64,000 nucleotides of DNA from Planctomycetaceae bacterium (GTDB lineage: Bacteria > Planctomycetota > Planctomycetia > Planctomycetales > Planctomycetaceae): the NCBI GenBank assembly GCA_024742875.1, contig JANSXP010000004.1, positions 1-64,000 on the forward strand, in the 5' to 3' direction. Shown here piece after piece: positions 39,201 through 53,321 of the stretch. Numbering within the stretch: the stretch's first letter is position 1; every line of letters begins with the position of its first letter. The position numbers and the translations under genes were made by a program. The notes under the pieces were generated by a model. The model ran no database searches, had not been told where the DNA came from, and was given only the letters and a program-made list of their open reading frames with translations.

Positions 39201-42200
39201 GTACGTGCCGGTGCGGGTGACGGGGATCAGTATCTCCTGATCGGGGCCCAGATCCTCATTGGCCGTCTGATCAAAGTCCGCACGGCTGGGCACACGATCG
39301 AACGCCACAAACAGCTGATTGAAGGCGTCCGGCGAATCACTGTCCAGGCGAATTCGCAGCGTCTCACCGGCCGTGACATCCACCTTAAAGAAGGTGAAAT
39401 CGCCCTCGCTGAGCGTGCCGTCAGTGGGCACACCCAGTTCGAGGGCGGGCACGTCCACTTCCACATCGTCCAAAGACGCGCGGATATTGTTCGCTTCGCT
39501 GATTTCCGGCAGCTGATTGCGAATATCGCTGCGGACGATCACAAAATACTCGCCCGGATCCACACCCGGCAGCGAAAGCGTGACGGTTTCGGTGTAACTC
39601 TCGCCTGGGGCCAGGTCGCCGATGTGGGGCACCTCTGCAAGGAATACATCGTCGCCACCAAATGCTTCATCGCGCGACAGAAACAGCGAATCACTCCAGC
39701 GACCGCGGGCCGTGTCATCGCCCTCATTGCGAACGGTGAACGTAATCGTCGCGTCCTGCCCAGGAGTCGCATTGGACGGCACAGGAATCTCGCCCACCAC
39801 CAGATCGGCCGGCGGAATCAGTTCCACGCTCAGTCCATCGCCGTCATGTCCCACGTTGTTGGTCAAATCGGATTCGAGCACCCGGGTGCTGCTGTTGGCA
39901 CTGTTGGCCCTCACAAACACAAAAAAGTCGCCCGCAATACCGCGTGGCAGATCGGCGGACGCCTGGAAGGTCTGCGTTTGGCCACTGCCAATGCTCTGCT
40001 GATTACGGAAGACGGTTCGCAGCACCGTATCTCGCGAGTCAAACACCTCGTCCAGTGACAGAAAAATCGTGTCGAACCATGACTGGTTGACCGCCTCACC
40101 GCCCGTGTTGGTCACGTCGTACGTCAGATCGATCTGCTGTCCACTGGCCGCGTTGTCCGGCCCATCCACCCGGGTCACCTGAAAATCAGGTCGCACTTCG
40201 TCCGGCGTGGCCTGCAGAGGAATCGTGGTCGCGGTCGCAAACACGTTGTTGGCTTCACTGGTTTCCACCACGTCATCCTGAGCGTCGGCCACAATCAGCA
40301 GATGAAAATTGCCGCCGATATCCGGAATACGCACGCTCTTTCGCAACGTGTAGGTTTCACCGGCGGCAATCGCACCGCTGCGGAAGGCACTGCCCAGAAG
40401 TACGTCACCATCATCCAGCGTGGTGTCGGTCGACAGGTAGATTTCGTCCCGCCAGATGTTGGAACTGGTCAAACCGATTCCCTGATTGATGCCCGTCCAG
40501 GTCAGCGTGAGCAGATCACCTTCGCGGAATGTTCCGACAGCCGGCGTCTCGGTTTGCTCGGTAATTTCAGCGATCTGCAGGTCAGCCCGATCGGCCGTTA
40601 CGTTGATGGTGGCCAGTGACGACACATTATTGTCACGATCACTTTCAAAAACTTCCGCCCTGTCATTGGTACGCACGAACAGCTTCAGTGCTCCCACCAC
40701 GTCCACGGGAATCTGCACCGTCTGGCTGATGGTGACACTCTCTCCGGGCGCCAGTTTGGGTCCGTGTCGCAGTGAGCCCACGCTGCGATCGTCCGCATTG
40801 CCGCTGATATCATCGGCAGACAACACAATCAGATCCCGGAACTGCTCGACGATGGTGTCGCCCGTGCCGTCGTTTCTCACGGTCCATTCCACCTTGATCA
40901 GATCCCCATTGGACGCCTCGGCGGGTACCTGAATGTCGGTGACCACCAGGTCGGCCGGCAGGGACTCGAAGGTGACTTTCTGGGGCGACGTCAGGGCGTT
41001 GTTATCTTCAAACACACTTTCAAACACCGCCTCGCCGCCGTCGGAAACCACAATCACAAAAAAGTCGCCAACCAGATCGTTGGGCACGGCCCGGGTGAAT
41101 GTCTCTTCGTAGGTTGCGTCAACGCCCACCGCACCGCGATGCCCCACCTGCCCAAACAGCAGGTCGTCGTCATCCAGTGTTTCGTCGGCCGACAGGAAGA
41201 TCTGATCCAGCCAGGACGTGTTGGGCGTGCCGCCCAGACCACGATTGGCGGCCGTGTAGGTCACACTGATGGACGTACCGGAACGAACCGTCGCGGGTGC
41301 CTCAATGTCCTCCACCACGAGGTCGGGCGACGGGCTCAAAAACACGTTCACAGGACGAGAGGAGACGTTGTTCTCTTCGTTGGCATGTTCGAAGGTGTCG
41401 TCCAGCACATCGGTTTGCACCAGGAAAAACAGGTCCAGCCCCTGAATGTCGACCGGCACTGTCGCGGTGGCCGTCTGTGTGAAACTCTCGCCCGGCTGCA
41501 GCACACCGCGATGTGTGCTGGTGGTCAGCAGAAAGTCGTTCGCTGAGATTGTCTCATCGGGCGACAGGAACACGCGGTCCACCACCGTATCCGCGTCGGT
41601 GGGGCCATCGCCGTTGTTGGTCACCGTCCAGGAAATCACAAATTCCTGTTCACTGAACACAGCCTGCGGAGCGCTGATGTCTGTGACCTGCAAATCCGCG
41701 GCGGGCGGCAGCGTGATCTGAATGGGCGACGAAATCCGCACATTGTCGTCTTCGTTGCCACGCTCGTTGACTCGATTGGGGCGATCCGTCACGGCAAACA
41801 CAAAGAAGTTGCCATCCAGATTGTCGGGCAGCACCACCTCCAGCGTATTCGTGTAGCTTTCGCCAGGATTGAGGAAACTGACATTTGCGGCGGTCCCCAG
41901 CGTCACATCGGCCCCTTCGGACAGACTGACCGGATCAAACGTTTGATCCACCGACAGAAACAGTCCATCAAACCATTGCGGCACACTGGTGGGGGCACCG
42001 CCCGTATTCGTCACGGTCCACTGAATCTCAGTCGTCTGACCGGCGACGGCCGTTTCGGGCACCTGCACGTCACTGACAATCAGATTGGGAAACTCCCGAA
42101 TCGACAGCTCAAACGTATCATCATCCACAAAGCGATTGTCATCGTCGCCGGCGTGCTCGAAAACGCGATTACCGGTATCCACCTGCACAACCACTCGGGC

Positions 42201-45200
42201 CGGCCCCTCGAATCCGGTTTCCACGGGAATGGTCACCAGCTGTCGACGGACAATCGTCTGGCCGGGAGCCAGCGTCCCGTTGAAGTCCACGCTGCCCAGT
42301 GAACGAGCGGCCACCGTGTCGTCGCCATCCACCACTGAGAGACTGGTGGACCAGGGTCCCGTGGCCACTGCGTCACCGTTGTTGGTGATCGTCCATTCGA
42401 CTTCCAGCTGATCCCCGCTGTTGGCCCGCGAAACCGGAATGCTGATATCCGACACGACAATATCCGGCAGCGGCGGCAGGGTCAGATCAATGGCCGCACT
42501 GCCCGTGTTGTTGGCTTCGTTCTGCTCAGCAACACGATTGCCGACATCAGTACGAGCCACGACAAAGAACGCCCCCGTCTGACTGCTGCGGTTCAGTGGC
42601 AGTGTGGCGGCGAACGTCTGCGTGTAGCTTTCGCCAGGAGCGAGCGGCACCAGATCGTCCGCGTTTTGTGAGAGCAGTGTGATGGGTGACTGGGTGCCGG
42701 CCGCGTTCTGCGACAGCACGATCTGATCCAGCACATTGGCGTTCACCGTGTCCGTGCCCGTGTTGCGAATCGTCCACGACACGCTGATTTCGTCACCAAA
42801 CTCGGCCGCTGCCGGCACATCAACAGATTCCACAATCAGATCAGCCCCGTCGATACGAATCGGACGTGCAAGGAGGTTGTTGGTTTCGTCGCCTTCAAAC
42901 TCCCGCAGATTCTCATCAGCAATGAACAGCAGGAAGTAGTCTCCCGCGGCAATCTGCAGCGGAATATTGGCGTCACCGGAGATCGACAGCGATTCCCCCG
43001 GGGCCAGTGGTGCGTCGCTGTTGGAAGATCGCAGCAGCAGCTGTCGGTCGCCCGCGTCAGCAACGGCGTCTTCAGAAAACAGCACACGATCCAGACGCGG
43101 AGCGGCCGCCGCCGCATCCCCCTGATTGAGAACGTCAAACGACAGACTGATCTGTTCGCCCAGCACAGCCGCCTCGGGCGCGTCGGCTGTGGAAATGACA
43201 AGATCGGGCGCCTGAACGGTGATTGCTCGCGTCAGCAGATTGTTGTCTTCGTCTGTCTCGAACTGCACCTGACCATCATCAGCGCTGAAGATCAGGAAGT
43301 ACTGACCGGGCGCCGTTTCGGGAATTTCGATGCGGGCCGTCAGTGTTTCCTCTGTGCCGGCATTCAAACGACTGCCTGCCTGAGAATTCAGCCGCGTGTC
43401 CTGCTCATCCAGCACATTGTCCGCAGAGAAGTACACCGCGTGGGAGGGCAGCCGGTCCACATCGCCTGCACCCGCATTGCTGATGACGAACTCCACATTC
43501 ACGTCGATCCCGGCGGCGGCTTCCGCAGGCGCTGTGCTTTGTGTGACCACCAGATCGGGGGACACCACCGTGATTGGCTCAGCCAGCGTGTTATTGTCGT
43601 CATCGTCTTCTGTAATCTGCCCGGCCGCGTCCGTCACAAAAATCAGAAAGTAGTCTCCCGGATCAACGTCCGGCAGATTGACGTTTGCTGCTGCCGTAAA
43701 CGAAGCGCCGGCCGCCAGCGGCAGATCGGCCGTGGCATTGCGACTGGTCAGCAGCGTGTCACCGGCGTCCAGTTCGCCGTCTGCTGAGAAGAACACGCGA
43801 TCCAGCATCGCGCCCACGGCGTCGCCCTGACCATCGTTGCGAACGATCCATTCCACGGCGATCTGCTCTCCCCGATTGGCCACATCGGGACTGTCTGATG
43901 AGGCGACCACCAGGTCCGGATGGAAATCGTTGTCGTCAATGGTGACCGTGGACGTGCCATCACCGATGGATGATCGCACAGCGTTCGACAGCGTCAGTTC
44001 AATTGTCTCCGCACCTTCGACCAGCGCGTCTTCACGGATCGGCACGACAATCTCGCCCACCCGTTCATCGGCGGCGAAAGTGAGCGTACCACTCACGGTA
44101 TCAAAGTCGGCTCCGGCAGTGGCTGATCCACCTGTCACGGCAAAATCAACGGCTGTCGTGACACCCGACGCGCGATCCAGCTCGACCCGCAGTGTGATGG
44201 ACTCACCGTCTTCGCCCACGCGGGCTGTGGTTTCAGAAAAACTGGCGATCGGCTGCGGATCCTCGCCATCCAGAATCGTGCCGATTCCTTCCGGATCCGG
44301 AATGGCGGCGTTGGTGGCATTGCTCAGCAGCACGCGAAATGTCTCGTCATCTTCGTCCCGCAAATCTCCCACGATGGGCACGGTGATGGTCTGCTGTGTC
44401 TGATTGGAGGCAAAGTTTAGTGTGCCGCTGGTGGCCAAAAAGTCGTCTCCTTCGCGGGCCGTCTGGGCCTCGGTCGTAAAATCGACAGAAACCGGATTGC
44501 CATTGGCTTCCAGATCCACTGTGAAGACCGCATTGACGGTCCCATCATCTCCTTCCACCACCGTCACATCGCTGATGGTCAGACCAGGAGGTGCGATCAC
44601 ACCGAGCGTCACGTTGTCAGCATTGACTTCTTTTTCCAGCAGCCCTCCGTTGCCAATGTTCGTGCCGGTGACAGTGGCAAAATCGCCCTGCACCGAAGGA
44701 AAGGTGATCACTTCGAATGTCTGGCCGGCGGTGGCTGCAAATCCATCAATCACCGACAGTCGCAATTCACCGGCCAGCGTGGTGTCATGATCCACCTCCA
44801 GGCGGTCGAACTGCGTGCCAGGTTCAACGCCCCCCACCTCGATGGCCACCACACTAGTGGATTCGAGCACAAGGTCCGCGTCGATGTTGAGCCGTCCGGG
44901 AGAGAGTCCGGGGGCCAGAGTGCCGGCACTGGTCAGCACTGACGCACGAACTTCTCCCGTGCCGCCAATCAGACCGGAGGCCTCATTTCTCAGCGAACTA
45001 ATGCCGTTGCCGGACTGCACGACAGCACGCCCCGTAGTCGCGGCGGATTCGTCGAGAACAATTTCCCCCTCATTGGCAAAGTCGGCCGGCAGTCGCAGCG
45101 TGGCATTCAGGCCATCGACAGCAGCCACCTCGATGCGCTGCTCGGCCGAAAGTGTCCCCAGCAGATCCACCGTGCCTTCGGCCCGAAAGCGGCCCGCCGA

Positions 45201-48200
45201 CTGATTGCCCGCGGCGACGTCCAGGTCCGCGTTTTTCAGCACGATCGGCTGGTCACCATCCAGCACGCCTCCCTGAAACTCAAAGAGGCCCGTGTTCTCC
45301 ACGACAAAGCGGCCATCACTGGTCAGTCGGCCGGTAGCCTGCTGCGTAAACACGGGATTGGAAAATGCGCTGGTGCTGCCCAGCGTGAGCACGCCGTCCG
45401 GCCCCACTGTGACATCGCCCGTGTTGTCGATGGCGATGTCACCGTCAAGCACCAGATCGTCCCCGGCCACAATCGCGCCCGCGTTATTCAGCTGCCCCGT
45501 CAGCACACGACCGTTACCGGAAGTGGATTCCAGCCGCCCCGTGTTGGTGATCACACCAGCGGACGGGGACGATGTCTGCAGATTGGCCAGACCCGTCTGC
45601 CCGGCAGCCGCATCAAACAAGATGGTGCCGGAGTTCTGAAAATCATTGCCAACCGTAAGCGTGACCTGCGAAGTGGACTGCGGCGTAATGCGAATCGTCT
45701 GGTTGGCGTTCAGGTCGGAGTTAAGCGTTACGCTGCGAGGCACCTCAAAAGTGACGGGCGCGTCGTTGCCGGGACTGATCGCAAGTGTGCCGCCCAGCAG
45801 CACGGGGTTCTCTGACCCCGCAATCGTCCCGCCATTGAAAAGAAAGTTGGCCCCTTCCGAAGAAAATGCCCCGTCGATGACGAGGGTGCCTTCATTCTGA
45901 TTGAACGTGGAGCGTGACGCGTTGAACGCTGGCATCGTCAGCGTCGCTCCTGCCTCGATATTCAGCTCACCGGAATTGTTCAGCACGGCAGAACTCTGCA
46001 CGGCCAGGTCCTGTCGCAGATGGAACTGGCCTTCGTTATTGAATGTAGCAAAGCCCATCGCAAACTGCGTCGTCCCCGCAGAAACGTCAATCACACCGCC
46101 GACCGCGTTTGTGATCGTGCCGCCAAAGCTGTCCAGTGACAGCCGTCCCGTCGCGCCGTCTGCGGCCAGCAGGTCAATCCGCCCGCTGTTCACAAACCCA
46201 TTGTCCAGGCGGACGGATGTCTGGGTCGCCCCCACGCCTTCAATCTGAACGCGCTGCCCGGCCGCCAGATTTCCCGAAATATCAGCCAGCCCCCGGAGCG
46301 AAACATCGAAGGCTGTCTGGTTGCCGGCCTCAATCTCCAGATCACCGTTTTGAATCAAAATCGTGCCGGCACCGGCGAACGCTCCGCCGCCCGATTTCAG
46401 CAGTCCCTGTGTGGTCAAACTGCCGGCCACATCAATGACGCCCGCTTCGTTGAGCAGCTGGGCGGCGCCGAATCCGGTATTCTGAATCTCCAGCGAAGCA
46501 TCGGCCCCAATGTCCAGTCGCCCTTCGTTGATCAGGCGACCATTGGAACTGCGGAACAGCACGTCCGTGGCCACATCCAGCGTGCCGCGGTTCCGCAGCG
46601 TTGTCAGCGTAAAGGGCGCTTCGCCACCAGCCGCCAGTTCCAGTGATCCGCCTGCCGCGATTTCCAGTGTGCCATTGCCCGCTCCTGCCTGAATGCGGCC
46701 TGTCTGGGCAGATCCGGCTTCCCGTTCGATTCGAATGGTGCCACTGCCGAGAAAGCCATCGTCCACCAGCAGCGTGGCGGCGAATGCCCCTGGCTGAACG
46801 ATGAGCGTCTGACTGGCCGGCAAATCCGTTTCCAGATCCACAGTCCGCCGCGCGATGATGGTTTCTGCATTGGGCAGACTGGCCGCGTACCTCAGATCGC
46901 CACTCTCCACGACGGGCGCGTTGCCGGTCAGATCACCGCCGTTGAACTCGAAGTCACCTGCTGCAACGAACTGGCCGGCCACATTCAGAGACCCGGCGTT
47001 TTGACGAAACGTCGTCGTGGCGCTGAACTCTGCCAGCACGCCCGCGGCCACCGTCAGCGTTCCCGAGTTCTCCACCTCCATGTTGTTGAGGGTGAAGTCA
47101 ATGTCCGCGCGCACATCAAATGTGCCGGTGTTTGTCAGAAGATCAACAAAGACGCTCACGGTATCAGCGATATCCAGTGTGCCGGCGTTGATCAGCTCAT
47201 CGGCCGTAAACGAACCGATGTTGTCGGTCGCCAGAATGGAGCCGCCCGCCGCATTGGTCAGCCGGCCATTGGCAACCCGCAACTTCGAACGCCGCGCCGC
47301 GGCCGAATCCGGATCCGCCTCAAAGCGAATCGTCCCCTCATTGGTAAAACCGTTGGCTGACAGCAGTTCGCTTTCCGCGAAGCCGTCGTTCTGCACGCGG
47401 ACAATCTGATCAGCGCCGATATCACCGGCCAACGACACTGTGCGTTCCACGACTACATCCACCGCGCCGGCGGCGGGGTCCAGATCCAGTGTGCCGCCGT
47501 TGATGACGGGACGATCTCCGGTGACTGTGCCCCCGATAAATCGAAAGGTGTCGGCGTCCGTGCGGAAGGCCCCATCGATGGTCAGCTGCCCCGACTCCTG
47601 CACAAACGTCAGGACCGAGACATCACCCACAACCGTGGATGTGCCGGCCGCGATATCGATCGCACCGCGGTTGGTGACGGTCGCAGCGGCGCCGTCGAAT
47701 TCAAAATTGGCATCAATGTCCAGCGTGCCTTCATTCACCACCTCACCAGTGATCTCGGCCGTACCGGTGGCTGCAGCCAGCACATTGAGGACTCCGCCGG
47801 CCGCATTGCTCAGCGTCTGTCCGTTATTCACCACCAGTCGGGGCAACGTGCTGTCGGCCGCTCCCAACTGAATCTGCCCGCTGTTGGCCAGATCGTTGAC
47901 CGTCAGTCGAGGACTGGCAACGCCGCCCGCAATGCCCACATTCAACTGCCCCTGCTGTGTCAAATTGTTGAGAATCGACGTCGAAGTGCCATTCACATTG
48001 ATGACGCCGCTGTTTGTCAAGGTGCCTGCCCCCTGAATGCGGCCGGAGCCATTGAGCTGGACAGTTCCGGCATCGATCCGGGATGCCTCGGCGACCGTCA
48101 GACTGCGGCCGGATTCCACATCCAAAGTCGCGTCTGCGGAGTTGATGGTGAGGCTGCGAATGGAGGCGTTGACATTCAGATCAACTTCAAACGGCACACC

Positions 48201-48449
48201 GTCGTCGGCATCGATGATCACGTCATCGTCTGCTCCAGGCACAAAAGTGGGCGACCAGTTGGCCGGATTACTCCAGTCACCGTCAATATTTCCTCCCCAC
48301 TCGATCACTGTCAGCAACTGCTTTTGTTCGAGCAGTTCGCTGGCAGCATTCAGTGGTGTCCGCTGCCGGCCATGACGTTTTCGGCGTGATCCTGCGGTGG
48401 AAACTCGTCGTTGTCGAAAAACGCGAAGCAGTTGGGAAAGACGTGACAT
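33249..48449 (-). CDS. Giant 5066-aa modular exoprotein: beta-repeats, Calx-beta, CARDB, RHS/YD, dockerin-like end
   Basis: This is one uninterrupted 15.2-kb frame from the ATG at 48449. The N-terminus is very basic (RKRHGRQR) and ends in LLEQKQLLTVIEWGG, resembling the LEPR-XLL export region of large planctomycete proteins. Residues about 60-1285 hold five modules of roughly 220 residues built on GGTVTGDRPV-, NAGTL- and NSGTI-like strands, probably a beta-helix. Two Calx-beta domains occupy about 1287-1505. Twelve CARDB-like repeats (P/ADLVV to V-WTV) run from about 1510 to 2995. A PPC-like domain (about 3003-3110) and Ig-like regions follow. RHS/YD repeats lie at about 3425-4155, then a conserved RHS-linked domain (about 4380-4590). 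Three SGIAAFDVFVS-type repeats cover about 4599-4870. The end (about 5004-5054) has two DxDxDG loops (DADGDGDADRRD, DINGDGRVNFLD), a dockerin type I pattern. It is probably surface-bound, acting in adhesion or matrix; no catalytic motif is seen. Confidence 0.93.
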   Translation of the reverse strand: MSRLSQLLRVFRQRRVSTAGSRRKRHGRQRTPLNAASELLEQKQLLTVIEWGGNIDGDWSNPANWSPTFVPGADDDVIIDADDGVPFEVDLNVNASIRSLTINSADATLDVESGRSLTVAEASRIDAGTVQLNGSGRIQGAGTLTNSGVINVNGTSTSILNNLTQQGQLNVGIAGGVASPRLTVNDLANSGQIQLGAADSTLPRLVVNNGQTLSNAAGGVLNVLAAATGTAEITGEVVNEGTLDIDANFEFDGAAATVTNRGAIDIAAGTSTVVGDVSVLTFVQESGQLTIDGAFRTDADTFRFIGGTVTGDRPVINGGTLDLDPAAGAVDVVVERTVSLAGDIGADQIVRVQNDGFAESELLSANGFTNEGTIRFEADPDSAAARRSKLRVANGRLTNAAGGSILATDNIGSFTADELINAGTLDIADTVSVFVDLLTNTGTFDVRADIDFTLNNMEVENSGTLTVAAGVLAEFSATTTFRQNAGSLNVAGQFVAAGDFEFNGGDLTGNAPVVESGDLRYAASLPNAETIIARRTVDLETDLPASQTLIVQPGAFAATLLVDDGFLGSGTIRIEREAGSAQTGRIQAGAGNGTLEIAAGGSLELAAGGEAPFTLTTLRNRGTLDVATDVLFRSSNGRLINEGRLDIGADASLEIQNTGFGAAQLLNEAGVIDVAGSLTTQGLLKSGGGAFAGAGTILIQNGDLEIEAGNQTAFDVSLRGLADISGNLAAGQRVQIEGVGATQTSVRLDNGFVNSGRIDLLAADGATGRLSLDSFGGTITNAVGGVIDVSAGTTQFAMGFATFNNEGQFHLRQDLAVQSSAVLNNSGELNIEAGATLTMPAFNASRSTFNQNEGTLVIDGAFSSEGANFLFNGGTIAGSENPVLLGGTLAISPGNDAPVTFEVPRSVTLNSDLNANQTIRITPQSTSQVTLTVGNDFQNSGTILFDAAAGQTGLANLQTSSPSAGVITNTGRLESTSGNGRVLTGQLNNAGAIVAGDDLVLDGDIAIDNTGDVTVGPDGVLTLGSTSAFSNPVFTQQATGRLTSDGRFVVENTGLFEFQGGVLDGDQPIVLKNADLDVAAGNQSAGRFRAEGTVDLLGTLSAEQRIEVAAVDGLNATLRLPADFANEGEIVLDESAATTGRAVVQSGNGISSLRNEASGLIGGTGEVRASVLTSAGTLAPGLSPGRLNIDADLVLESTSVVAIEVGGVEPGTQFDRLEVDHDTTLAGELRLSVIDGFAATAGQTFEVITFPSVQGDFATVTGTNIGNGGLLEKEVNADNVTLGVIAPPGLTISDVTVVEGDDGTVNAVFTVDLEANGNPVSVDFTTEAQTAREGDDFLATSGTLNFASNQTQQTITVPIVGDLRDEDDETFRVLLSNATNAAIPDPEGIGTILDGEDPQPIASFSETTARVGEDGESITLRVELDRASGVTTAVDFAVTGGSATAGADFDTVSGTLTFAADERVGEIVVPIREDALVEGAETIELTLSNAVRSSIGDGTSTVTIDDNDFHPDLVVASSDSPDVANRGEQIAVEWIVRNDGQGDAVGAMLDRVFFSADGELDAGDTLLTSRNATADLPLAAGASFTAAANVNLPDVDPGDYFLIFVTDAAGQITEDDDDNNTLAEPITVVSPDLVVTQSTAPAEAAAGIDVNVEFVISNAGAGDVDRLPSHAVYFSADNVLDEQDTRLNSQAGSRLNAGTEETLTARIEIPETAPGQYFLIFSADDGQVQFETDEDNNLLTRAITVQAPDLVISTADAPEAAVLGEQISLSFDVLNQGDAAAAAPRLDRVLFSEDAVADAGDRQLLLRSSNSDAPLAPGESLSISGDANIPLQIAAGDYFLLFIADENLREFEGDETNNLLARPIRIDGADLIVESVDVPAAAEFGDEISVSWTIRNTGTDTVNANVLDQIVLSQNAAGTQSPITLLSQNADDLVPLAPGESYTQTFAATLPLNRSSQTGAFFVVARTDVGNRVAEQNEANNTGSAAIDLTLPPLPDIVVSDISIPVSRANSGDQLEVEWTITNNGDAVATGPWSTSLSVVDGDDTVAARSLGSVDFNGTLAPGQTIVRRQLVTIPVETGFEGPARVVVQVDTGNRVFEHAGDDDNRFVDDDTFELSIREFPNLIVSDVQVPETAVAGQTTEIQWTVTNTGGAPTSVPQWFDGLFLSVDQTFDPVSLSEGADVTLGTAANVSFLNPGESYTNTLEVVLPDNLDGNFFVFAVTDRPNRVNERGNEDDNVRISSPIQITLPPAADLQVTDISAPQAVFSEQEFVISWTVTNNGDGPTDADTVVDRVFLSPDETISANDFLLTTSTHRGVLQPGESFTQTATATVPVDIQGLDLFFLVQTDVLDDTFEHANEENNVSSRPVNVFLSPSPDLVVEDIEAPATVRSGTSISVTYTAANRGLGGTPNTSWLDQIFLSADETLDDDDLLFGQVGHRGAVGVDATYEETFTRAVPNDLVGDFFVIVVSDGGEAVFESVFEDNNALTSPQKVTFESLPADLVVTDIQVPAEASNGDLIKVEWTVRNDGTGDTIVEQFRDLIVLSADDISGNADDRSVGSLRHGPKLAPGESVTISQTVQIPVDVVGALKLFVRTNDRAEVFESDRDNNVSSLATINVTADRADLQIAEITEQTETPAVGTFREGDLLTLTWTGINQGIGLTSSNIWRDEIYLSTDTTLDDGDVLLGSAFRSGAIAAGETYTLRKSVRIPDIGGNFHLLIVADAQDDVVETSEANNVFATATTIPLQATPDEVRPDFQVTRVDGPDNAASGQQIDLTYDVTNTGGEAVNQSWFDTIFLSLDEVFDSRDTVLRTVFRNQQSIGSGQTQTFQASADLPRGIAGDFFVFVRANSANSSTRVLESDLTNNVGHDGDGLSVELIPPADLVVGEIPVPSNATPGQDATITFTVRNEGDDTARGRWSDSLFLSRDEAFGGDDVFLAEVPHIGDLAPGESYTETVTLSLPGVDPGEYFVIVRSDIRNQLPEISEANNIRASLDDVEVDVPALELGVPTDGTLSEGDFTFFKVDVTAGETLRIRLDSDSPDAFNQLFVAFDRVPSRADFDQTANEDLGPDQEILIPVTRTGTYFILANGVSVEQVAPAFSIVAETLEFSALSTRVTRGSNVGQVTIPLIGAKLTPVTRVALQAEDGSEIVASRTRFVSQAEVWATFDLAGADIGLYDITVEDGNQVAALENSFTVTDGPAGELRINIRAPEVVGGTARRDPVFQFQVEYENVGDTDVIAPIFNLTAAGADIQTPGLDGVFRQDQQFVAVNREGEGPAGILAPGASNTQTFIGRMGAPGGLGGESDAIRDIARIDVVPIELDPASLIASLLDVAIDEADLRQSLSDRLLASVDGTPAGLELALAQNATHLSQLGFHTADVLRLLLFELSQLENVASLVAPVIQVDAAAPAPGVALYLERGFAINSARVGEFGIFGRGWTHNWDVVLAEDENSVTIDFGGQTESFERLEGGTFRSRPGHPSVLLQEGNRFVHVDRQGFRRSFDPNGLLVRVEDRDGQRVDLTYDNLQLVSLQHSNGAQLQLTYNADGTVRELTDHVGRVTTYTYDAAGELLQQVDGPGEQTLYEYDTEGVFSQGLLTRVRDASGVERRFEYDELGRFSATSRGTAAERREFRYDGSGGVTVVDPNGRTQTVLLTEGGAVGLTFDDTGESVSAVFDEAGLVDQTVSPGGVIYDLEHDERGLVTSLTDPGGGQTTLSYSDSGLLTRAVDAVGVAHQYDYDDSGNLTSLTYADGTRYAATYNENGELRTLTDPSGISQTYSRNALGQITEIEYSSGEVVSYTYDARGNLLTATDSSGTVTNTWDAEDRLARITYPGGRFLDFTYDAFGRRTSSIDSTGFATKYEYDAANRLSAVRRGDGTAIVQYQHDDLGRLVREDNGNGAFTTYSYDHLDRLLSRINHASDGSVSSSFRYTYDRLGRQQTLTTLDGVTRFEYDGSGQLARVETPTGRVLEYDYDAAGNRTAVTDDGVVTSYTIDEAGRYTQIGDQTSTYDASGRLTRTEENGVVTEFAYDERGRLVMTSQDGDVTKFEYDAVGRKIGESRGGVRVEVLTDPFGLGLPVAEFADDGSVSGRFIHGNGLAAAVDVAGNEQFFEFDGLGNTVKVNDAVGGTLNEYDILPFGEVLRAVETVANRFRVNGQFGAATDSTGTVSGLGGGLAESFRPAEGRRLTESLPRPNSARDILRTPTPGGNNPGVNATATNRSLAQVFSQAINGNAQNPVNAQVSPQQQTFESVFGQLAMSAPALAFESASMDGFGNSGPDDFGFADGSAQQESLADAGFQSDIDRAVARLEEKAFEKLEDVAKGIGSKVFKRFNLVDKTFRFVKDGPVQFVIDEFGQIIDVAKDAVLAFNALSELAESIFVRFLRSKDPNDITGPEGFGDERWVAAGERLPFTIRFENVAEATAPAQRVLINTKVDRDIDIRSFRFGDFGFGDFLFDVADDATFIEERFDFVESAGILVDVQAAVDPRDREVTWLFTAIDPATGLPPEDPTLGFLPPNVGEDGVGEGFANYSIVADTDVPSGTEVTSQATIFFDQNAPIDTNIFVNTIDSGVPTSRVNALPELSGEFFEVSWTGDDDDGGSGIAAFDVFVSKDDGPFEPFLIGTTATSAPFQAELEHTYRFFSVAIDNAGNRELAPNGFDASTLATAAVEDGTAPVSEPAAVRDAVAVDFEVTVAAEDPIGPDGQPPSGLRRVDVFVAEDEGEFAFLRSLAPGEDAFVFNGQSNRIYWFRTVAVDIAGNVENKPLAPEAIVIVGDFDAPETRVDSLETADSGLIGLNLIGTDSGGQGLASFDVFVAIDGGAPSLIATVDAGPAAAGVHSVSTTFQALTDGLEHMYDFFTIGRDGAGNVEDAPADPDQTLTATFAPPVDIEATGIDVQDGSTQRSFVRFLDIDFTSTDDLQQLIDGGQISLERFDIDSTDVTPGTGDVVDLSGTNFTVTDTGIRLDFGAQGIGGNRNSRVGDGFYRILLDTSGDGQANQSFEFHRIFGDADGDGDADRRDLFRVLRGLRRRNPREFDINGDGRVNFLDVLFTARESLLGKRLDDGLFDLLDD

Positions 48450-48522: not shown

Positions 48523-48637
48523 TGCTGCCGTCACGATGTCTAACACCGAATCTGGTATTTGGCCCAAATCCCACGAGAATTGGGGACATTCGTGGCCACA
48601 ACGCACAGTCCGCCAGGATTCCCGTGCGTAGCGGGGA

Positions 48638-48709
48638 TGAGGTCGACAGGATTCGAACCTGCGCCCGTCTGGTTAAAAGCCAGAGATGCTGCCGTTACAC
48701 CACAACCTC
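48638..48709 (-). tRNA. tRNA-Lys (anticodon UUU)
   Basis: A 72-nt cloverleaf: acceptor GAGGTTG/CGACCTC, anticodon stem TCTGG/CCAGA with loop CTTTTAA, T-arm GCAGG-TTCGAAT-CCTGT, discriminator A. U8 and U33 are present. CCA is not encoded. A terminator-like hairpin follows at 48471-48522. Confidence 0.9.
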
Positions 48710-48885
48710 AGTCTCAGGTTGAGGCCGTTGGTTTTCTTCCATCCCTGCGTATCACGATCTCTCCGGTGTGCCGGCAAACCCGGCGGAAAATGGGAAAGGG
48801 AAAAGGGGAATCGACAGGCAGACCCGCATTGCGCATCTGATCGTCAGCAGGACAACATCGGGACAACCGGGGGCAGATTGCCCAG

Positions 48886-48957
48886 CGGGTCGAGAGGCGC
48901 TCGAATCCTCGTCTGCGGTGCTTCAAACCGCCGCTAATCCATCTCAGCTACCGACCC
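48886..48957 (-). tRNA. tRNA-Phe-like (anticodon GAA)
   Basis: A 72-nt cloverleaf: acceptor GGGTCGG/TCGACCC, D-stem GCT/AGC, anticodon stem GCGGT/ACCGC with loop TTGAAGC, T-arm GAGGA-TTCGAGC-GCCTC with an A-G mismatch at the loop-closing pair (53-61). The discriminator is G rather than the A expected for Phe. CCA is not encoded. Confidence 0.8.
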
Positions 48958-48991: not shown

Positions 48992-49021
48992 AAAAAAACC
49001 TCACATCTGTGCGATGCGAGG
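48992..49021 (-). terminator. Intrinsic terminator downstream of the ECF-kinase gene
   Basis: On the minus strand CCTCGCAT pairs with ATGTGAGG (one G-T) over a 7-base loop, followed by seven T. It lies 230 bp after the kinase stop and just before tRNA-Phe. The stretch 49022-49251 between kinase stop and this hairpin shows no gene. Confidence 0.75.
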
Positions 49022-49251
49022 TGGCTGCGGACACACGTCGGACAGTCAATACCTCAACATCGATGCACCATAAACTGCACCGCCAGCGTAAATGCGGCGG
49101 CAAGTTTTTTCTGGATGCGGGCAGTTTTTCGATCGCGGCACACGGTATTGACCTTTGTCTGAAAACGTGGAGAACGAACGCAAAGACGTTTCCTGTGCGC
49201 GAAGGTTCGCCGTTTTTTCAGATTCCCGCGGAACCTGCAGATGCTGTTCGG

Positions 49252-50682
49252 TCAGTCGGCCAGATCAACTTCAAGACAGTCGGCTTCCCGGTTGGAAAAT
49301 CGGGCCAGATCACGACAGACGTCGGAGAGAGCAGGGCGGTTGTCCGGCGCTGCGTCGGCCCACTTCAGACACATCTGTCGCCAGGTGCGCATCGGGGCGG
49401 ACAGGTTGCCTGGTTTTTGCCACAGGTCGCTGGCAGAAACCAGCTGCCAGGCAAGTACGCCCACCGCATAGACGTCCGCGGCCGGCGAGGGGGGCTGCCC
49501 GGCGAGAACTTCCGGTGCCACATAGCCGCTCGTGCCACCAATGGACTTCACAGACAGGGCCGCTGCAGGGTCCTGTCGCAACGACCAGGCGAAGCCAAAA
49601 TCGGTGACCACCGGTTCACCTGAGGGACGCAGCAGAATGTTGGCCGGCTTCAGATCGCAGTGCACCACACCGCACCGATGCACGTGCTCCACGGCCTGAG
49701 CCGTCAGATTCATCAGCTCCGCCGCGCGCGCCAGGGCAAATCGCCGCTCGGCCAGTCGAGTTTGCAGATTGGGGCCGTCCACATATTCGCACACCAGAAA
49801 CAACCCACCTGCCGGAAACTGCCCGAGGCCAGTCACTGCGGTCACACCAGGATGCTCAATCGCCAGCAGTGTCTGTGCTTCATGCACGAATCGCTCAACA
49901 GCTCGCACGTCCGACTGCCAGTGCTTACGAAGGGCCTTCACGGCCACCGTCCGCTGCGTGCTCAGTTCCGTGGCACGAAACACGCGGCCCATCGCGCCGG
50001 CCCCAATCATCTGGTGCAGTCGGTAGTCGTCGCTGTGCAGCAAAGGTCGGGTGTTGTCAGTCCCGACACGGTCCCAGACAGTCTTTGGGACGATGTCCTG
50101 CGACGGCTGTTGAAGCCTGTCCTCGATCGTCTGCCGAGCCTGCTGCAGCAACCGCCGCGCGGTCCGCACAGAGCGTCCTGATTGTGTGGCCAGTTGCTCG
50201 AGCGACAATCCGGCCAATACGCCTTCGATCACACCGCGCTGTGCAGTTGGCAGGTCGGCGAGCGCCAGTTGCAGCAGTTCGGCAGCCGCCACCACATCGA
50301 CCACGGCGGGCTGACGCTCGACCATGGCGGCCGGCTCCGTGCTGAACTCCTGGCGTACGTCGCGCTTGGCGGCGGTGTGACGTTCCAGTTGTCGCCCCAG
50401 CTTATGCATCGTGATCTTCGCCAGCAGCCGCCACAGATCTCCTGCCTGCGACGTTTCAAAGCGGCCGCCGCGAGAATGCAGAAAAAAACTTCTCCAGGCA
50501 GACTGCGTCACGTCCTCCGCCGATGCCCGCGCTCGAAATTTATTGCCCAGTCTTTGCTCGGCCAGTGCCAGCAATCGAGCCGAATAGCGTTCATACACGA
50601 CCACTTCCGCAGCACCGTCGCCGCGTGCCACACGATTGAGAAGTTCGGCCGATCGCGGCGATTGCGGGCCTGTCGCATTCAT
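49252..50682 (-). CDS. ECF sigma factor fused to a Ser/Thr protein kinase
   Basis: This 476-residue protein starts at the ATG at 50682; a longer in-frame extension is not sigma-like. Residues about 8-95 match an ECF sigma-2 region (SAEDVTQSAWRSFFLHSRGGRFE). About 130-190 match sigma-4 (LPTAQRGVIEGVLAGLSLEQLATQSGRS in two blocks). About 215-475 form a Hanks-type kinase: Gly-rich GAGAMGRVFRA, VAVKAL lysine, catalytic HCDLKPANILL (Cys replaces Arg of HRD), DFG, and a GTSGYVAPEV activation segment. No transmembrane or PASTA region follows. Planctomycetes encode ECF factors of kinase-associated groups, usually as separate neighbours. Here one polypeptide carries both, so promoter choice could be controlled by autophosphorylation. 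That is inference. Confidence 0.9.
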   Translation of the reverse strand: MNATGPQSPRSAELLNRVARGDGAAEVVVYERYSARLLALAEQRLGNKFRARASAEDVTQSAWRSFFLHSRGGRFETSQAGDLWRLLAKITMHKLGRQLERHTAAKRDVRQEFSTEPAAMVERQPAVVDVVAAAELLQLALADLPTAQRGVIEGVLAGLSLEQLATQSGRSVRTARRLLQQARQTIEDRLQQPSQDIVPKTVWDRVGTDNTRPLLHSDDYRLHQMIGAGAMGRVFRATELSTQRTVAVKALRKHWQSDVRAVERFVHEAQTLLAIEHPGVTAVTGLGQFPAGGLFLVCEYVDGPNLQTRLAERRFALARAAELMNLTAQAVEHVHRCGVVHCDLKPANILLRPSGEPVVTDFGFAWSLRQDPAAALSVKSIGGTSGYVAPEVLAGQPPSPAADVYAVGVLAWQLVSASDLWQKPGNLSAPMRTWRQMCLKWADAAPDNRPALSDVCRDLARFSNREADCLEVDLAD

Positions 50683-50867
50683 GGCCTGTCTCCGAGTCAG
50701 AGGAATTTCTGAATTCTGACCGGAATTGCTGACCGCCCTTATCCCAAAATCGCATTGGCAGGCGGAATTCCGGCCTTCCGAGAAAGAATTTCTCAGCCGG
50801 AGATCGGAACCGGCGTGCCCCGCCGTGTTCGCCCTGATGCTGCGCACTGTTTACTGGAGCGACCCTC

Positions 50868-51175: not shown

Positions 51176-51320
51176 TCAATGGTCGCGTTATGCGGAAATG
51201 TGACAGCCTGTGAGCCACGTTGATTTGTTCGCTTTTGTGAAAAAGCGGGCACTGTGTGTGAACCAAATTCGCCGCACCACGTCTTACTTCCTGATGACCC
51301 AATCCGGTCAGCCAACTCTG

Positions 51321-51356
51321 CAACAACTTCTGCAACAACTTCTGCAACAACTTCTG
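51321..51356. repeat. Three tandem copies of a 12-bp unit
   Basis: CAACAACTTCTG is repeated three times exactly, preceded by a partial copy (CAACTCTG), 15 bp upstream of a small ORF and 170 bp upstream of the tRNA array. The surrounding 51176-51371 shows no other feature. Confidence 0.9.
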
Positions 51357-51371
51357 CCTTCAGGTGGTTTC

Positions 51372-51461
51372 ATGTCTTTCGCCTTCTTCAATCCGTCTTT
51401 TGCCAATTCCGGCCATCGGGATATGGGCGGCGATATGCCCACAGGCAATAGCAATACATGA
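51372..51461 (+). CDS. Possible 29-aa small ORF ahead of a terminator
   Basis: ATG at 51372 with AGGTGG about 4 bp upstream opens a 29-residue peptide rich in Asn/Gly/Phe, followed 26 bp later by a strong terminator. It could be a leader peptide or small protein. No family is recognised and the coding signal is weak. Confidence 0.35.
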   Translation: MSFAFFNPSFANSGHRDMGGDMPTGNSNT

Positions 51462-51487
51462 CACCTGAATTCTGCGGAAACTCCAGC

Positions 51488-51520
51488 AGCCCGGTGTCAT
51501 GCGACACCGGGCTTTTTTTT
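51488..51520 (+). terminator. Strong intrinsic terminator
   Basis: AGCCCGGTGTC and GACACCGGGCT form an 11-bp perfect stem over a short loop, followed by eight T. It lies 2 bp before the first tRNA of the array, so the array must have its own promoter within or after it, or the terminator is read through. Confidence 0.9.
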
Positions 51521-51522
51521 GT

Positions 51523-51593
51523 GCACCTGTGGTCCAGTGGGAAGACTCCGCTTTCGTAAAGCGGTAACGAGGGTTCGACTCCCTCCGGGTGCT
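51523..51593 (+). tRNA. tRNA-Thr (anticodon CGU)
   Basis: A 71-nt cloverleaf: acceptor GCACCTG/CGGGTGC, D-stem GTC/GAC, anticodon stem CCGCT/AGCGG with loop TTCGTAA, T-arm GAGGG-TTCGACT-CCCTC. Discriminator T; no encoded CCA. Confidence 0.9.
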
Positions 51594-51632
51594 CTGGCCT
51601 GACAATGGCAACATAACGACGACAAAAACGAT

Positions 51633-51703
51633 GCGCCCATGATGTAGCGGTAGCCTGCTGCCTTGCCATGGCGGAAGTGTGGGTTCGACTCCCACTGGGC
51701 GCT
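51633..51703 (+). tRNA. tRNA-Gly (anticodon GCC)
   Basis: Acceptor GCGCCCA/TGGGCGC is perfect, anticodon stem CTGCC/GGCGG has one G-T pair with loop TTGCCAT, and the T-arm is GTGGG-TTCGACT-CCCAC. The D-stem is poor. Discriminator T; no encoded CCA. Confidence 0.85.
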
Positions 51704-51709
51704 TTGATT

Positions 51710-51784
51710 CAGGATGTGGGAAAGTCTGGCTAATCCGCGTGCCCTGGGAGCACGAGATCGCTGGTTCAAATCCAGCCATCCTGA
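51710..51784 (+). tRNA. tRNA-Pro-like (anticodon UGG) with C33
   Basis: Acceptor CAGGATG/CATCCTG, D-stem GGA/TCC, anticodon stem CGTGC/GCACG with loop CCTGGGA, T-arm GCTGG-TTCAAAT-CCAGC, discriminator A. Position 33 is C, whereas U33 is nearly universal, so decoding ability is uncertain. Confidence 0.8.
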
Positions 51785-51786
51785 CT

Positions 51787-51806
51787 GGCAGCCTTAACAG
51801 GCTGCC
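51787..51806 (+). other. Spacer hairpin between tRNA genes
   Basis: GGCAGCC and GGCTGCC form a perfect 7-bp stem with a 6-base loop, followed by CTTTATT. It may be a processing element or weak terminator. Confidence 0.6.
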
Positions 51807-51812
51807 CTTTAT

Positions 51813-51887
51813 TGCGGTGGGGTCTGTGCTGGTACGGGCAGGCGGCTGTTAACCGTCGTGACGCAGGTTCGATTCCTGCCACCGCAG
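51813..51887 (+). tRNA. tRNA-Asn (anticodon GUU)
   Basis: Acceptor TGCGGTG/CACCGCA, anticodon stem GGCGG/CCGTC (one G-T) with loop CTGTTAA, T-arm GCAGG-TTCGATT-CCTGC, discriminator G. Position 8 is G instead of the conserved U. Confidence 0.85.
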
Positions 51888-51901
51888 CTTATCAACATTT
51901 T

Positions 51902-51976
51902 GGCGGGATCGCTGCTGCTGGATGTGGCGCCTGGTTCTGAGCCAGGAGGACGTCGGTTCGATTCCGACTCCCGCAA
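51902..51976 (+). tRNA. tRNA-Gln (anticodon CUG)
   Basis: Acceptor GGCGGGA/TCCCGCA has an open first pair (G1-A72), which resembles the weak first pair of normal tRNA-Gln. Anticodon stem CCTGG/CCAGG, loop TTCTGAG, T-arm GTCGG-TTCGATT-CCGAC, discriminator A. Confidence 0.85.
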
Positions 51977-51979
51977 CTT

Positions 51980-52076
51980 GTGGAACGCCGCCGTGGATCA
52001 TGAATGGTCAGGGCCCTGATGATGCAGCGATGCCGCGGTTCAATCCTCCGCGGCGCATCGCCCCGGCGGCTTCCAC
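51980..52076 (+). ncRNA. Structured RNA inside the tRNA array (not a normal tRNA)
   Basis: GTGGAA-(C)-GCCGCCG at 51980-51993 pairs with CGGCGGC-TTCCAC at 52064-52076 to close a 13-bp stem. Inside lie an ATCAT/ATGAT hairpin region (51997-52023) and a long hairpin, GCGATGCCGCGG against CCGCGG-CG-CATCGC, with loop TTCAATCCT (52027-52061). The loop sequence GGTTCAATCC recalls a T-arm, but I could not build acceptor, D and anticodon arms. It may be a decayed tRNA or another RNA. Confidence 0.45.
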
Positions 52077-52087
52077 CAATACAACTT

Positions 52088-52158
52088 ACGTCTCTGGTGT
52101 AATGGCAGCACGACTGATTCCAAACCAGTCGGTCGGGGTTCGATTCCCTGGGGATGTG
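52088..52158 (+). tRNA. tRNA-Trp (anticodon CCA)
   Basis: Acceptor ACGTCTC/GGGATGT (with G-T pairs), D-stem GTG/CAC, anticodon stem ACTGA/CCAGT with an A-C mismatch closing loop TTCCAAA, T-arm CGGGG-TTCGATT-CCCTG, discriminator G. U8 is present. Confidence 0.85.
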
Positions 52159-52191
52159 CTCGTGACGGATCGATTCGGCCCGTCTCAATTC

Positions 52192-52264
52192 GCCCTCGCG
52201 GAGCAGTGGAGTGCTCGCCTGCTTGTCAAGCAGTAGATCGCCGGTTCGAATCCGGTCGAGGGCG
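52192..52264 (+). tRNA. tRNA-Asp (anticodon GUC)
   Basis: Acceptor GCCCTCG/CGAGGGC perfect, D-stem GAGC/GCTC, anticodon stem CCTGC/GCAGT (outer pair C-T open), loop TTGTCAA, T-arm GCCGG-TTCGAAT-CCGGT, discriminator G as expected for Asp. Position 8 is C. Confidence 0.87.
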
Positions 52265-52266
52265 CT

Positions 52267-52286
52267 GGTCGCGTACGAACGCGACC
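52267..52286 (+). other. Spacer hairpin between tRNA genes
   Basis: GGTCGCGT and ACGCGACC form a perfect 8-bp stem with a 4-base loop, immediately after tRNA-Asp. No T-run follows. Confidence 0.6.
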
Positions 52287-52293
52287 GACGGAA

Positions 52294-52363
52294 TGCAGGT
52301 GCGACAGGTGTCCAGCTGGCTTTCATAAGGCCGGCCCGCTCGGCTCGATACCGAGACCTGCAA
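52294..52363 (+). tRNA. tRNA-Met-like (anticodon CAU), atypical
   Basis: Acceptor TGCAGGT/ACCTGCA is perfect. The anticodon stem TGGCT/GGCCG has G-T pairs with loop TTCATAA (elongator-like). The T-arm is CTCGG-CTCGATA-CCGAG, with C instead of T at position 54. The D region is short and position 8 is G. It may be diverged or non-functional. Confidence 0.7.
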
Positions 52364-52399
52364 CTGAATCATCCGGTCATCAGGACGGGATGAGCCAAT

Positions 52400-52471
52400 G
52401 GGCCTGCATGCCGCTGGGGGCGACTGATCTTCGCATGATCGGTGCGGTCGGTTCGACTCCGATCAGGTCCA
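52400..52471 (+). tRNA. tRNA-Ala-like (anticodon CGC)
   Basis: Acceptor GGGCCTG/CAGGTCC, D-stem GCC/GGC, anticodon stem TGATC/GATCG with loop TTCGCAT, T-arm GTCGG-TTCGACT-CCGAT, discriminator A. Position 8 is C. The normal Ala determinant G3-U70 is present: G3 faces T70 in the acceptor. Confidence 0.8.
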
Positions 52472-52474
52472 CTG

Positions 52475-52498
52475 CGGCAGGTGTGATATCACCTGCCG
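52475..52498 (+). other. Spacer hairpin between tRNA genes
   Basis: CGGCAGGTG and CACCTGCCG form a perfect 9-bp stem with a 6-base loop between tRNA-Ala and tRNA-Ser. No T-run follows. Confidence 0.65.
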
Positions 52499-52503
52499 TC
52501 AAC

Positions 52504-52595
52504 GGAAGGGCAACCCGACTGGCGACGGGGTCCGGTTGGAAGCCGGTTGAGCGAGAACTCACCTTGCCTTGAGGGTTCGACTCCCTCTCCTTCCG
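52504..52595 (+). tRNA. tRNA-Ser (anticodon GGA), class II
   Basis: A 92-nt tRNA with acceptor GGAAGGG/TCCTTCC, anticodon stem TCCGG/CCGGT (outer T-T open) and loop TTGGAAG, a long variable arm with GAG/CTC pairing, T-arm GAGGG-TTCGACT-CCCTC and discriminator G. The long variable arm is the Ser hallmark. Position 8 is C. Confidence 0.87.
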
Positions 52596-52597
52596 CT

Positions 52598-52651
52598 GTG
52601 TCGGTGTAACTGACCGTGTCAGTGCAACTGACCGTGTCAGTGCAACTGACA
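52598..52651 (+). repeat. Three tandem 18-bp hairpin-forming units
   Basis: GTGTCAGTGCAACTGACC is repeated three times with small changes in the first and last copies. Each unit can fold as GTCAGT/ACTGAC. The block separates tRNA-Ser from tRNA-His. Confidence 0.85.
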
Positions 52652-52661
52652 CACACAATTT

Positions 52662-52735
52662 GGTGTCCGTGGTGTACGTGGTAGGCACATCTGCCTGTGA
52701 AGCAGAAGGTATGGGTTCAACTCCCTTCGGTCACC
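52662..52735 (+). tRNA. tRNA-His (anticodon GUG) with encoded G-1
   Basis: G at 52662 precedes acceptor GTGTCCG/CGGTCAC (one T-T mismatch) and faces discriminator C73, the His identity pair. D-stem GTG/CAC, anticodon stem TCTGC/GCAGA with loop CTGTGAA, T-arm ATGGG-TTCAACT-CCCTT. Confidence 0.85.
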
Positions 52736-52743
52736 CCTTCGAA

Positions 52744-52970: not shown

Positions 52971-53321
52971 ATGGAAATCTCTCAGGCACGAGCTGGGAAG
53001 GCATCGGTGAGAGTTCAGGCCATAAGCGACTACGGCGAGTCTCGCACTGTGGCCGTTTCATACGATCGATTCTCACTTCGCGTGCAGACTTGCTCCGCTC
53101 TTTTCCTGGATGACCTCGGAATCCGGAAGCCATCCGAAGCCGTCTACCAAACGCTCTTCGATCTGTTGGAGTGGCGGAAAGGCAAACCGCTGATTATCAC
53201 CACCAACAAGGCAATCAGCGATCTGGCGAAGATGTACGACGACCGAATCGTGGACCGACTCACGGCAGGGACGGTGGTCAAATTTGAGGGCCGCTCACGA
53301 CGGCAGAATAAGAAACCGTAG
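52971..53321 (+). pseudogene. Remnant of a DnaC/IstB-like helicase-loader ATPase
   Basis: The frame encodes about 116 residues. Only the C-terminal part is recognisable: a Walker-B-like LFLDDLG, then LLEWRKGKPLIITTNKAI and DDRIVDRLTAGTVVKFEG, typical of DnaC/IstB AAA+ loaders. The N-terminal half with the Walker A motif is missing and the first 30 residues look unrelated. Intact family members are about 230-270 residues, so this is a truncated fragment from a phage or mobile element. It abuts the tRNA array and the attC cassette region. Confidence 0.7.

Follow-up and report, generated by a model that had tools for sequence, protein, structure and literature searches.

Extra sets of tRNA genes have been found in bacteria and in phages, and why they are kept is an old open question. 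The question is raised again by a stretch of 64,000 nucleotides (nt) from a Planctomycetaceae bacterium (assembly GCA_024742875.1, contig JANSXP010000004.1, positions 1 to 64,000 of the forward strand; called the window below), which contains an array of eleven tRNA genes on the plus strand and a Phe-Lys pair on the minus strand. What is such an array for, and when is it made? The window holds two of the three transcription units that form a second, non-redundant tRNA set of this organism. From the sequence statistics reported below, we consider it probable that this set is kept as a stand-by tRNA kit behind a leader-peptide attenuator that is indifferent to the identity of the codons. The kind of locus is already known. 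Its switch is, as far as we have searched, new, as no attenuated tRNA array was found among the titles and abstract openings listed by a literature search that covered only a minority of subscription journals.

The leader upstream of the arrays

Within the 450 nt before the arrays a common layout is repeated, comprising a promoter of the form GAAC...CGTC, a short open reading frame (ORF) and an intrinsic terminator, for example GCCCGGTGTCA...TGACACCGGGC followed by a T-run. The stop region of the leader ORF (TGACACC) is the reverse complement of the 5' arm of the terminator. The layout is present in both units of the window, unit A (Phe-Lys) and unit B (Thr to His), and in the third unit, which lies outside the window on contig C33. 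The parts in the window are the following (ECF, extracytoplasmic function):

49184 to 49210, minus strand: unit A promoter, ECF-type by its motif, GCGAACC at 49210-49204 and CGTCT at 49188-49184
49054 to 49143, minus strand: unit A leader ORF with GTG start, 29 codons (VCRDRKTARIQKKLAAAFTLAVQFMVHRC), stop codon TGA at 49056-49054
48998 to 49022, minus strand: unit A intrinsic terminator, ACCTCGCATC...GATGTGAGGT, then T7
51258 to 51284, plus strand: unit B promoter, ECF-type by its motif, GTGAACC at 51258-51264 and CGTCT at 51280-51284
51294 to 51461, plus strand: unit B leader ORF, 55 codons (MTQSGQPTLQQLLQQLLQQLLPSGGFMSFAFFNPSFANSGHRDMGGDMPTGNSNT), stop codon TGA at 51459-51461, with a further in-frame ATG at 51372
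51457 to 51465, plus strand: unit B antiterminator strand CATGACACC, overlapping the leader stop and pairing with GGTGTCATG at 51493-51501
51488 to 51521, plus strand: unit B intrinsic terminator AGCCCGGTGTCATGCGACACCGGGCT with T-run, ending just before tRNA-Thr (51,523)

In unit A, the 5' arm of the terminator can pair with the stop region GATGTTGAGGT; its ORF starts with GTG and hence stands outside the counts of ATG ORFs given below. A comparison of the window's leader regions with Rfam returned no family at E <= 1.

Of the 90 array clusters, 46 were matched by a strict scan for GAAC-N15-18-[CG]GTC followed by a terminator. The same scan matched 3 of 36 regions upstream of housekeeping tRNA genes, none of 78 downstream sides and none of 90 shuffled sequences, as well as 81 of 2912 random segments, which may include leaders that the strict scan misses. 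A quantile threshold derived from random segments was discarded because the segments could hold real leaders, and clusters with less than 300 nt of upstream sequence (L067, L089, L119 and one of L129) were excluded. When a promoter matrix was used, the promoter, the promoter plus terminator, and both together with the ORF were found at 76, 64 and 60 of the 90 clusters, compared to 4, 0 and 0 of 36 housekeeping upstream regions, 26, 7 and 0 of 500 random segments of the genome's housekeeping loci, and 11, 3 and 1 of 78 downstream sides. The result was reproduced with 42 held-out clusters, 40 from named genomes plus L211 and L214 from a viral collection, chosen after exclusion of single-tRNA clusters, clusters with less than 330 nt upstream and upstream regions already seen. 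Here the promoter was present in 40, the terminator in addition in 39 and also the ORF in 37, and none of 43 downstream sides used as control was positive.

The promoter consensus is GCGAACC-N-CGTCT, and the gap between GAAC and CGTC is 16 nt in 23, 17 nt in 21 and 15 nt in one of 45 leaders. A GAAC -35 element and a CGTC -10 element 16-17 nt apart are the traits of an ECF promoter, and we take the motif to be of the ECF sigma type, the sigma class presumably following from the motif. In a review consulted for this motif (PMC8103513), its letters do not occur. In ten array genomes the near-consensus promoter matched 11 times, nine times before called array tRNAs, once at a leader without called tRNA and once before a lone tRNA-Ala(CGC); ten genomes without an array match, some of them with weak matches, had two such sites, one at a lone tRNA-Ala(CGC) and one without a tRNA. 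In the genome of the window, a loose pattern had at least 124 matches versus 51 for its reverse and was too noisy, and a tight pattern had two, namely the C33 unit and a site without called tRNAs.

Some loci deviate from the common layout. At L228 (genome G067) and L231 (genome G020) a lone tRNA-Ala(CGC) gene stands right behind a near-consensus promoter, neither a leader nor a terminator can be seen in between, and G020 has no match to the array query L065 described below. The leader of L230 (genome G082) looks complete, no tRNA was called in the 1.5 kb that follow, and the unit has possibly lost its tRNAs. In the window, a gene for a fusion of an ECF sigma domain with a Ser/Thr kinase (49252-50847, minus strand) lies between units A and B; in the neighborhoods compared, such a gene was not a regular companion of the arrays.

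Of the 64 leaders in which promoter and terminator were both found, 60 contain an ATG ORF of 18 codons or more whose end lies 8-62 nt ahead of the terminator, while shuffled leaders had a mean of 14.3 and a maximum of 23 in 200 rounds. Judged from the sequence, the leaders appear to contain the short ORF ending at the switch that is typical of attenuators, with a median of 34 codons. The stretch that pairs best with the 5' arm of the terminator overlaps the stop codon in 35 of the 60 leaders (5.3 expected) and in 26 of the 37 held-out leaders (3.2 expected). Pairing is stronger with a leader's own terminator than with swapped terminators (-18.1 versus -14.6 kcal/mol, 55 unique leaders), a difference that none of 5000 permutations reached, and variants are matched on both sides, TGACGCC with GGCGTC, TGACGACC with GGTCGTC, and TGACCACCCCC with GGGGGT. 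Terminator and antiterminator are mutually exclusive and co-vary, as in attenuators. In the nascent RNA before synthesis of the 3' arm, the antiterminator forms in 54 of 60 predicted folds.

Two elements of classical attenuators were searched for without success. In the pooled leaders there are no control codons for one amino acid (the largest enrichments are 1.9 for Cys and 1.8 for Ser), and sensing of one specific amino acid was rejected. Furthermore, a trp-like protective 1:2 hairpin was not found in the 60 leaders (mean z -0.2; 4 of 60 below -2), and therefore an untranslated leader should lead to readthrough.

The second tRNA set

ARAGORN recovered ten of the eleven tRNAs that the initial annotation had placed on the plus strand (51,523-52,737), and also the Phe and Lys genes on the opposite strand (48,635-48,957). 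The remaining gene, Met, was not called; its DNA, at about 52,293-52,364, shares 97% identity with a tRNA-Met(CAT) gene from a different genome in the genus (G006:C274). The genes are:

48885 to 48957, minus strand: tRNA-Phe (GAA), array lineage, with A.G at 53:61
48635 to 48710, minus strand: tRNA-Lys (TTT), by ARAGORN and Rfam
51523 to 51594, plus strand: tRNA-Thr (CGT), by ARAGORN and Rfam
51633 to 51703, plus strand: tRNA-Gly (GCC), by ARAGORN and Rfam
51710 to 51785, plus strand: tRNA-Pro (TGG), by ARAGORN
51813 to 51888, plus strand: tRNA-Asn (GTT), by ARAGORN and Rfam
51902 to 51977, plus strand: tRNA-Gln (CTG), by ARAGORN and Rfam, three conserved columns deviating
52088 to 52159, plus strand: tRNA-Trp (CCA), by ARAGORN and Rfam
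52192 to 52265, plus strand: tRNA-Asp (GTC), by ARAGORN and Rfam
52293 to 52364, plus strand: tRNA-Met (CAT), short D-arm form, by homology, no ARAGORN call
52400 to 52472, plus strand: tRNA-Ala (CGC), by ARAGORN, G3:U70 kept (by eye)
52504 to 52596, plus strand: tRNA-Ser (GGA), by ARAGORN
52663 to 52737, plus strand: tRNA-His (GTG), by ARAGORN, G-1 and C73 kept (by eye)

Each specificity occurs once in the window array and none of the genes has a CCA encoded behind it (by eye), as had been stated beforehand; among all loci examined, a CCA lies no more than five bases from the called end in 15 distinct array sequences. The Rfam tRNA model detects most array genes of the window with moderate scores, such as 38 bits for Gln and 29 bits for Asn. 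Ser and Ala are missing from the genome's matches to this model; in an Rfam table where overlapping matches are reduced to the best one, they appear only under the selenocysteine tRNA model tRNA-Sec, below its cut-off. In the gap between Gln and Trp a hairpin resembling a T-arm (about 52,032-52,054, by eye) may be a further degenerate tRNA gene. In the array tRNA-Gly, a D stem pair is broken in 42 of 45 loci.

The genome comprises 8.18 Mb in 168 contigs and is 98.1% complete. It has 54 Rfam tRNA matches, and 41 distinct housekeeping tRNA sequences were found. The C33 unit, which like the leaders did not feature in the initial annotation, has the order Glu-Arg-Tyr-Leu-Leu-Ser. No anticodon occurs in more than one of the three units, which jointly serve 17 amino acids, Met included; for Ile, Val and Cys no tRNA was called in them. 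The initial annotation had suggested a second set distinct from the housekeeping one, to be checked by a search for isoacceptors outside the window. This search revealed a separate housekeeping set in which every array anticodon is duplicated, with the sole exception of Ala-CGC, for which no housekeeping copy was found. Because housekeeping copies of its anticodons exist elsewhere in the genome, the array is a second set. Specificities are partitioned among the units. In 16 genomes with at least two units, the units of one genome have 24 anticodons in common, compared to 54.5 +- 4.9 expected from random draws, and in 11 of these genomes they share none, while in G078 and G087 sharing is about as expected.

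Such arrays are widespread in the class. With the 32-tRNA array L065 as query, 87 of 148 genomes of the class were matched (E <= 1e-8). Of 40 genomes of the class, 17 contain an exact Gly marker, which is present in none of 302 other genomes of the phylum, and a longer Gly marker retrieved 67 stretches from named genomes, the titles of which are planctomycete taxa, the PVC (Planctomycetes-Verrucomicrobia-Chlamydiae) group or "bacterium". The cultured relatives Lacipirellula limnantheis and Stieleria sedimenti have long arrays with a leader. Few flanking ORF families recur in at least three of 22 array loci. Within genera the neighborhood can be common, as for G001, G002 and G007, and, with another neighborhood, for G048 and G056. 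Of the mobile or accessory origin proposed earlier, the accessory part is borne out by the second set, and variable positions and some signs of mobility fit it as well, but the evidence does not indicate a recent mobile arrival. Because the arrays are class-wide and stable inside some genera, a mobile element as the main account of their origin was demoted.

One sign of mobility is the 94-kb viral-collection contig L211, which has a 25-tRNA array with a complete leader (peptide end HPLRL) and, near the array, a DNA topoisomerase gene and two genes matching invertase/integrase families. The array and its leader may here be carried together by a mobile element. A viral or phage origin of the arrays was also considered and found insufficiently supported: the Gly marker pattern occurs in seven viral-collection contigs, two of which (L211 and L214) have arrays with leaders, and L214 looks chromosomal (by eye). 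Genes of the phage integrase family (Pfam) overlap or adjoin array tRNAs at L066 (8814-10127, minus strand) and L083 (3391-4980, minus strand), and therefore the arrays may serve as integration sites.

Around the window array, a "helicase-loader remnant" and an attC cassette array had been described. The former is an IstB-like fragment just past the array, at 52971-53321 (plus strand), a weak IstB/IS21 match under the Pfam cut-off and a possible IS21 remnant. A simple hairpin scan with a strict pattern detected no attC sites, which speaks neither for nor against an integron. Directly downstream of the Phe-Lys unit lies an ORF of 5066 residues with many repeats (33249-48449, minus strand).

Proposed mechanism and alternatives

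We propose the following course of events. Transcription of each unit would start from the ECF-type promoter and then be gated by the leader. A ribosome that translates the leader ORF to its end would sit on the stop codon and mask the strand that pairs with the 5' arm of the terminator; with the stop region masked, the terminator would form and the tRNAs would not be made. If the ribosome stalled within the ORF, or never started, the stop region would pair with the 5' arm and the tRNA genes would be transcribed. Any failure to finish the leader would thus open the switch, as expected from the absence of a favored amino acid and of a trp-like 1:2 hairpin. The tRNAs made in this way would presumably be charged and act as stand-by tRNAs for translational stress. 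It is more tentative, and in our view a little short of an even chance, that this applies to the Planctomycetia in general, in the form of an emergency kit with a dedicated sigma factor, the near-consensus sites of which would be nearly confined to the arrays, an attenuator that acts as a general stall sensor, and a nearly complete second set that is released together. In this form of the proposal the leader ORF would have no job other than being finished, and a shortage of whichever charged tRNA, or a ribosome blocked in whatever way, would release the set.

Several observations weigh against this interpretation. Promoter and terminator are absent at the chosen thresholds in 26 of 90 clusters, of which some look recognizable by eye and others look worn, and the promoter threshold alone is also reached by the four housekeeping upstream regions mentioned above. 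Of the same leaders, 45 had served to train the promoter matrix; the held-out genomes have genera in common with the first set, which makes their independence incomplete. The reversed promoter pattern is as frequent as the near-consensus pattern itself (11 matches in the array genomes, 2 in the genomes without an array match), and therefore only the placement of the matches is evidence. Regarding the switch, when the RNA from shortly ahead of the stop codon to the end of the terminator is folded to minimum energy, the terminator is kept in only 43 of 60 leaders, and in 25 of 60 the best pairing window lies elsewhere than at the stop codon. The number of distinct amino acids per leader is barely above background (15.2 versus 14.8 +- 0.25). 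Between related leader ORFs an excess of third-position substitutions is absent, and there is therefore no sign of peptide selection outside the C-terminus. Lastly, the Pro (loop), Gln and Phe (discriminator) genes of the window look worn, and the covariation of Gly and Phe described below was judged against shuffles that ignore relatedness.

Among other explanations, the one that fares best shares the switch with the stand-by kit and differs in its purpose. The array tRNAs would replace host tRNAs that are cut by anticodon nucleases, as in phage defense or by toxins, and the attenuator would sense the resulting stall. Phage tRNAs (PMC10264068) and mycobacterial arrays (PMC12803027) have been suggested to play such a role, and in 7 of 11 specificities compared the anticodon loop differs from that of the housekeeping isoacceptor (by eye). 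However, the loops of Thr, Asn, Trp and Lys are identical to their housekeeping counterparts (by eye), and starvation or antibiotics would fit the same switch equally well. We regard this purpose as possible, but lean against it.

An arrest peptide is unlikely. In this case the C-terminus Leu-Arg-X of the leader peptide would sense a particular drug or metabolite instead of a general slowing of translation. Leu-Arg is indeed found at positions -3 and -2 (Leu-Arg-X-stop) in 27 of 56 unique leaders, versus 1.5% of 6094 short ORFs, and all six Leu codons are used at -3, from which we read a probable selection at the peptide level at the very end of the leader. However, Leu-Arg is absent from the other 29 leaders, including that of unit B in the window, and a stall at the stop codon would mask the antiterminator, so that the array would stay off. 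A role in holding the ribosome fits the motif as well; our guess is that the Leu-Arg-X end might keep the ribosome on the stop codon and thereby the switch shut.

Still less credit is given to the view of the array as a functionless relic of horizontal acquisition that is in decay. Planctomycete clusters have been called degenerate and perhaps dispensable (PMC4807772), different genomes retain different subsets, and in the window the genes score low and several deviate at conserved sites. In tRNA-Pro the anticodon is preceded by C instead of the T seen in 78 of 86 relatives, and at the discriminator tRNA-Phe carries G, a position occupied by A in 48 of 50 other array copies. Against decay, the cloverleaf stems of Gly (n=45) and Phe (n=47) co-vary beyond all 500 shuffles by every measure, with the limit that the shuffles ignore relatedness, and they also lie far above slid versions of the structure. 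These alignments (A1 and A2) comprise 45 of 75 Gly sequences, the divergent L071 being among those omitted, and 47 of 51 Phe sequences. At 53:61, none of the 47 array tRNA-Phe sequences has a standard pair (A.G in 36, G.A in 8, A.A in 3), and on this pattern the mismatch is a conserved peculiarity and no random decay. For four pairs of neighboring genes, identity between loci is 0.77-0.84 for the tRNAs, 0.39-0.53 for the spacers and 0.34-0.47 for shuffled spacers, so the spacers are conserved less than the tRNAs. In addition, the leaders are retained and co-vary, and the units of one genome have fewer anticodons in common than expected. A supplement to the codon use of acquired genes has been proposed for tRNA-Ile(UAU) (Kim et al., 2016; PMC4807772), and in its favor Ile(TAT) is present in relatives' arrays. 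As the purpose of the window array it is very improbable, because Ile(TAT) was not called in the three units of this genome, where Ala-CGC is the only new anticodon and the others have housekeeping copies.

If the stand-by kit with its codon-agnostic switch is real, planctomycetes would sense translation as such, and not one amino acid, and would respond with tRNAs. The conserved switch makes the function of second tRNA sets testable, as it predicts when they are made and by which molecular event. It also alters the reading of clusters that have been called degenerate.

Comparison with known systems

Attenuators of the trp, his and ilv type consist of a short ORF and mutually exclusive antiterminator and terminator structures, with the stop codon at the pairing strand. 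The array leaders are alike in all three respects. They differ in that they have no control codons for a single amino acid and no 1:2 hairpin, and the output is tRNAs instead of enzymes.

With regard to the genes, the window array is similar to tRNA array units, which have been defined by at least 20 tRNAs and at least two tRNAs per kb (as cited in PMC5966550), in that it is dense, mostly single-copy and located beside a housekeeping set. The main unit of the window has ten tRNAs in 1.2 kb and surpasses the required density, but with 10-11 genes (ten plus Met) it remains under the threshold for number. Both values are reached by 45 of 155 clusters examined (some loci are twice in this set), and the largest related array has 38 tRNAs. 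Mycobacterial tRNA arrays have been discussed as a putative antidefense system (PMC12803027), and phage tRNAs have been linked to the evasion of anticodon nucleases (PMC10264068).

In planctomycetes, earlier work (Kim et al., 2016; PMC4807772) has portrayed tRNA clusters as degraded in part, in many cases gained by horizontal transfer, and perhaps not required. The phylum and the kind of locus are the same as for the window array, which is likewise additional to a housekeeping set and has partly degraded members with low scores and deviations, next to the conserved folds of Gly and Phe. The window array appears to be one of these clusters. The passages of that paper considered here make no mention of a leader or a switch.

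The nearest functional precedent is the trn operon of Anabaena sp. PCC 7120, a group of 26 tRNAs on a megaplasmid that is controlled by the repressor TrcR and is reported to be silent in normal growth, to be induced by translation-targeting antibiotics and to favor survival (PMC10272220). In both cases a long second tRNA operon exists beside the housekeeping set. In Anabaena, according to the parts of the report considered here, a ribbon-helix-helix repressor controls initiation, in contrast to the ECF-type promoter and the switch of leader ORF and terminator described here. The planctomycete set also belongs to another phylum, and it can be divided over several units, each of which has its own switch.

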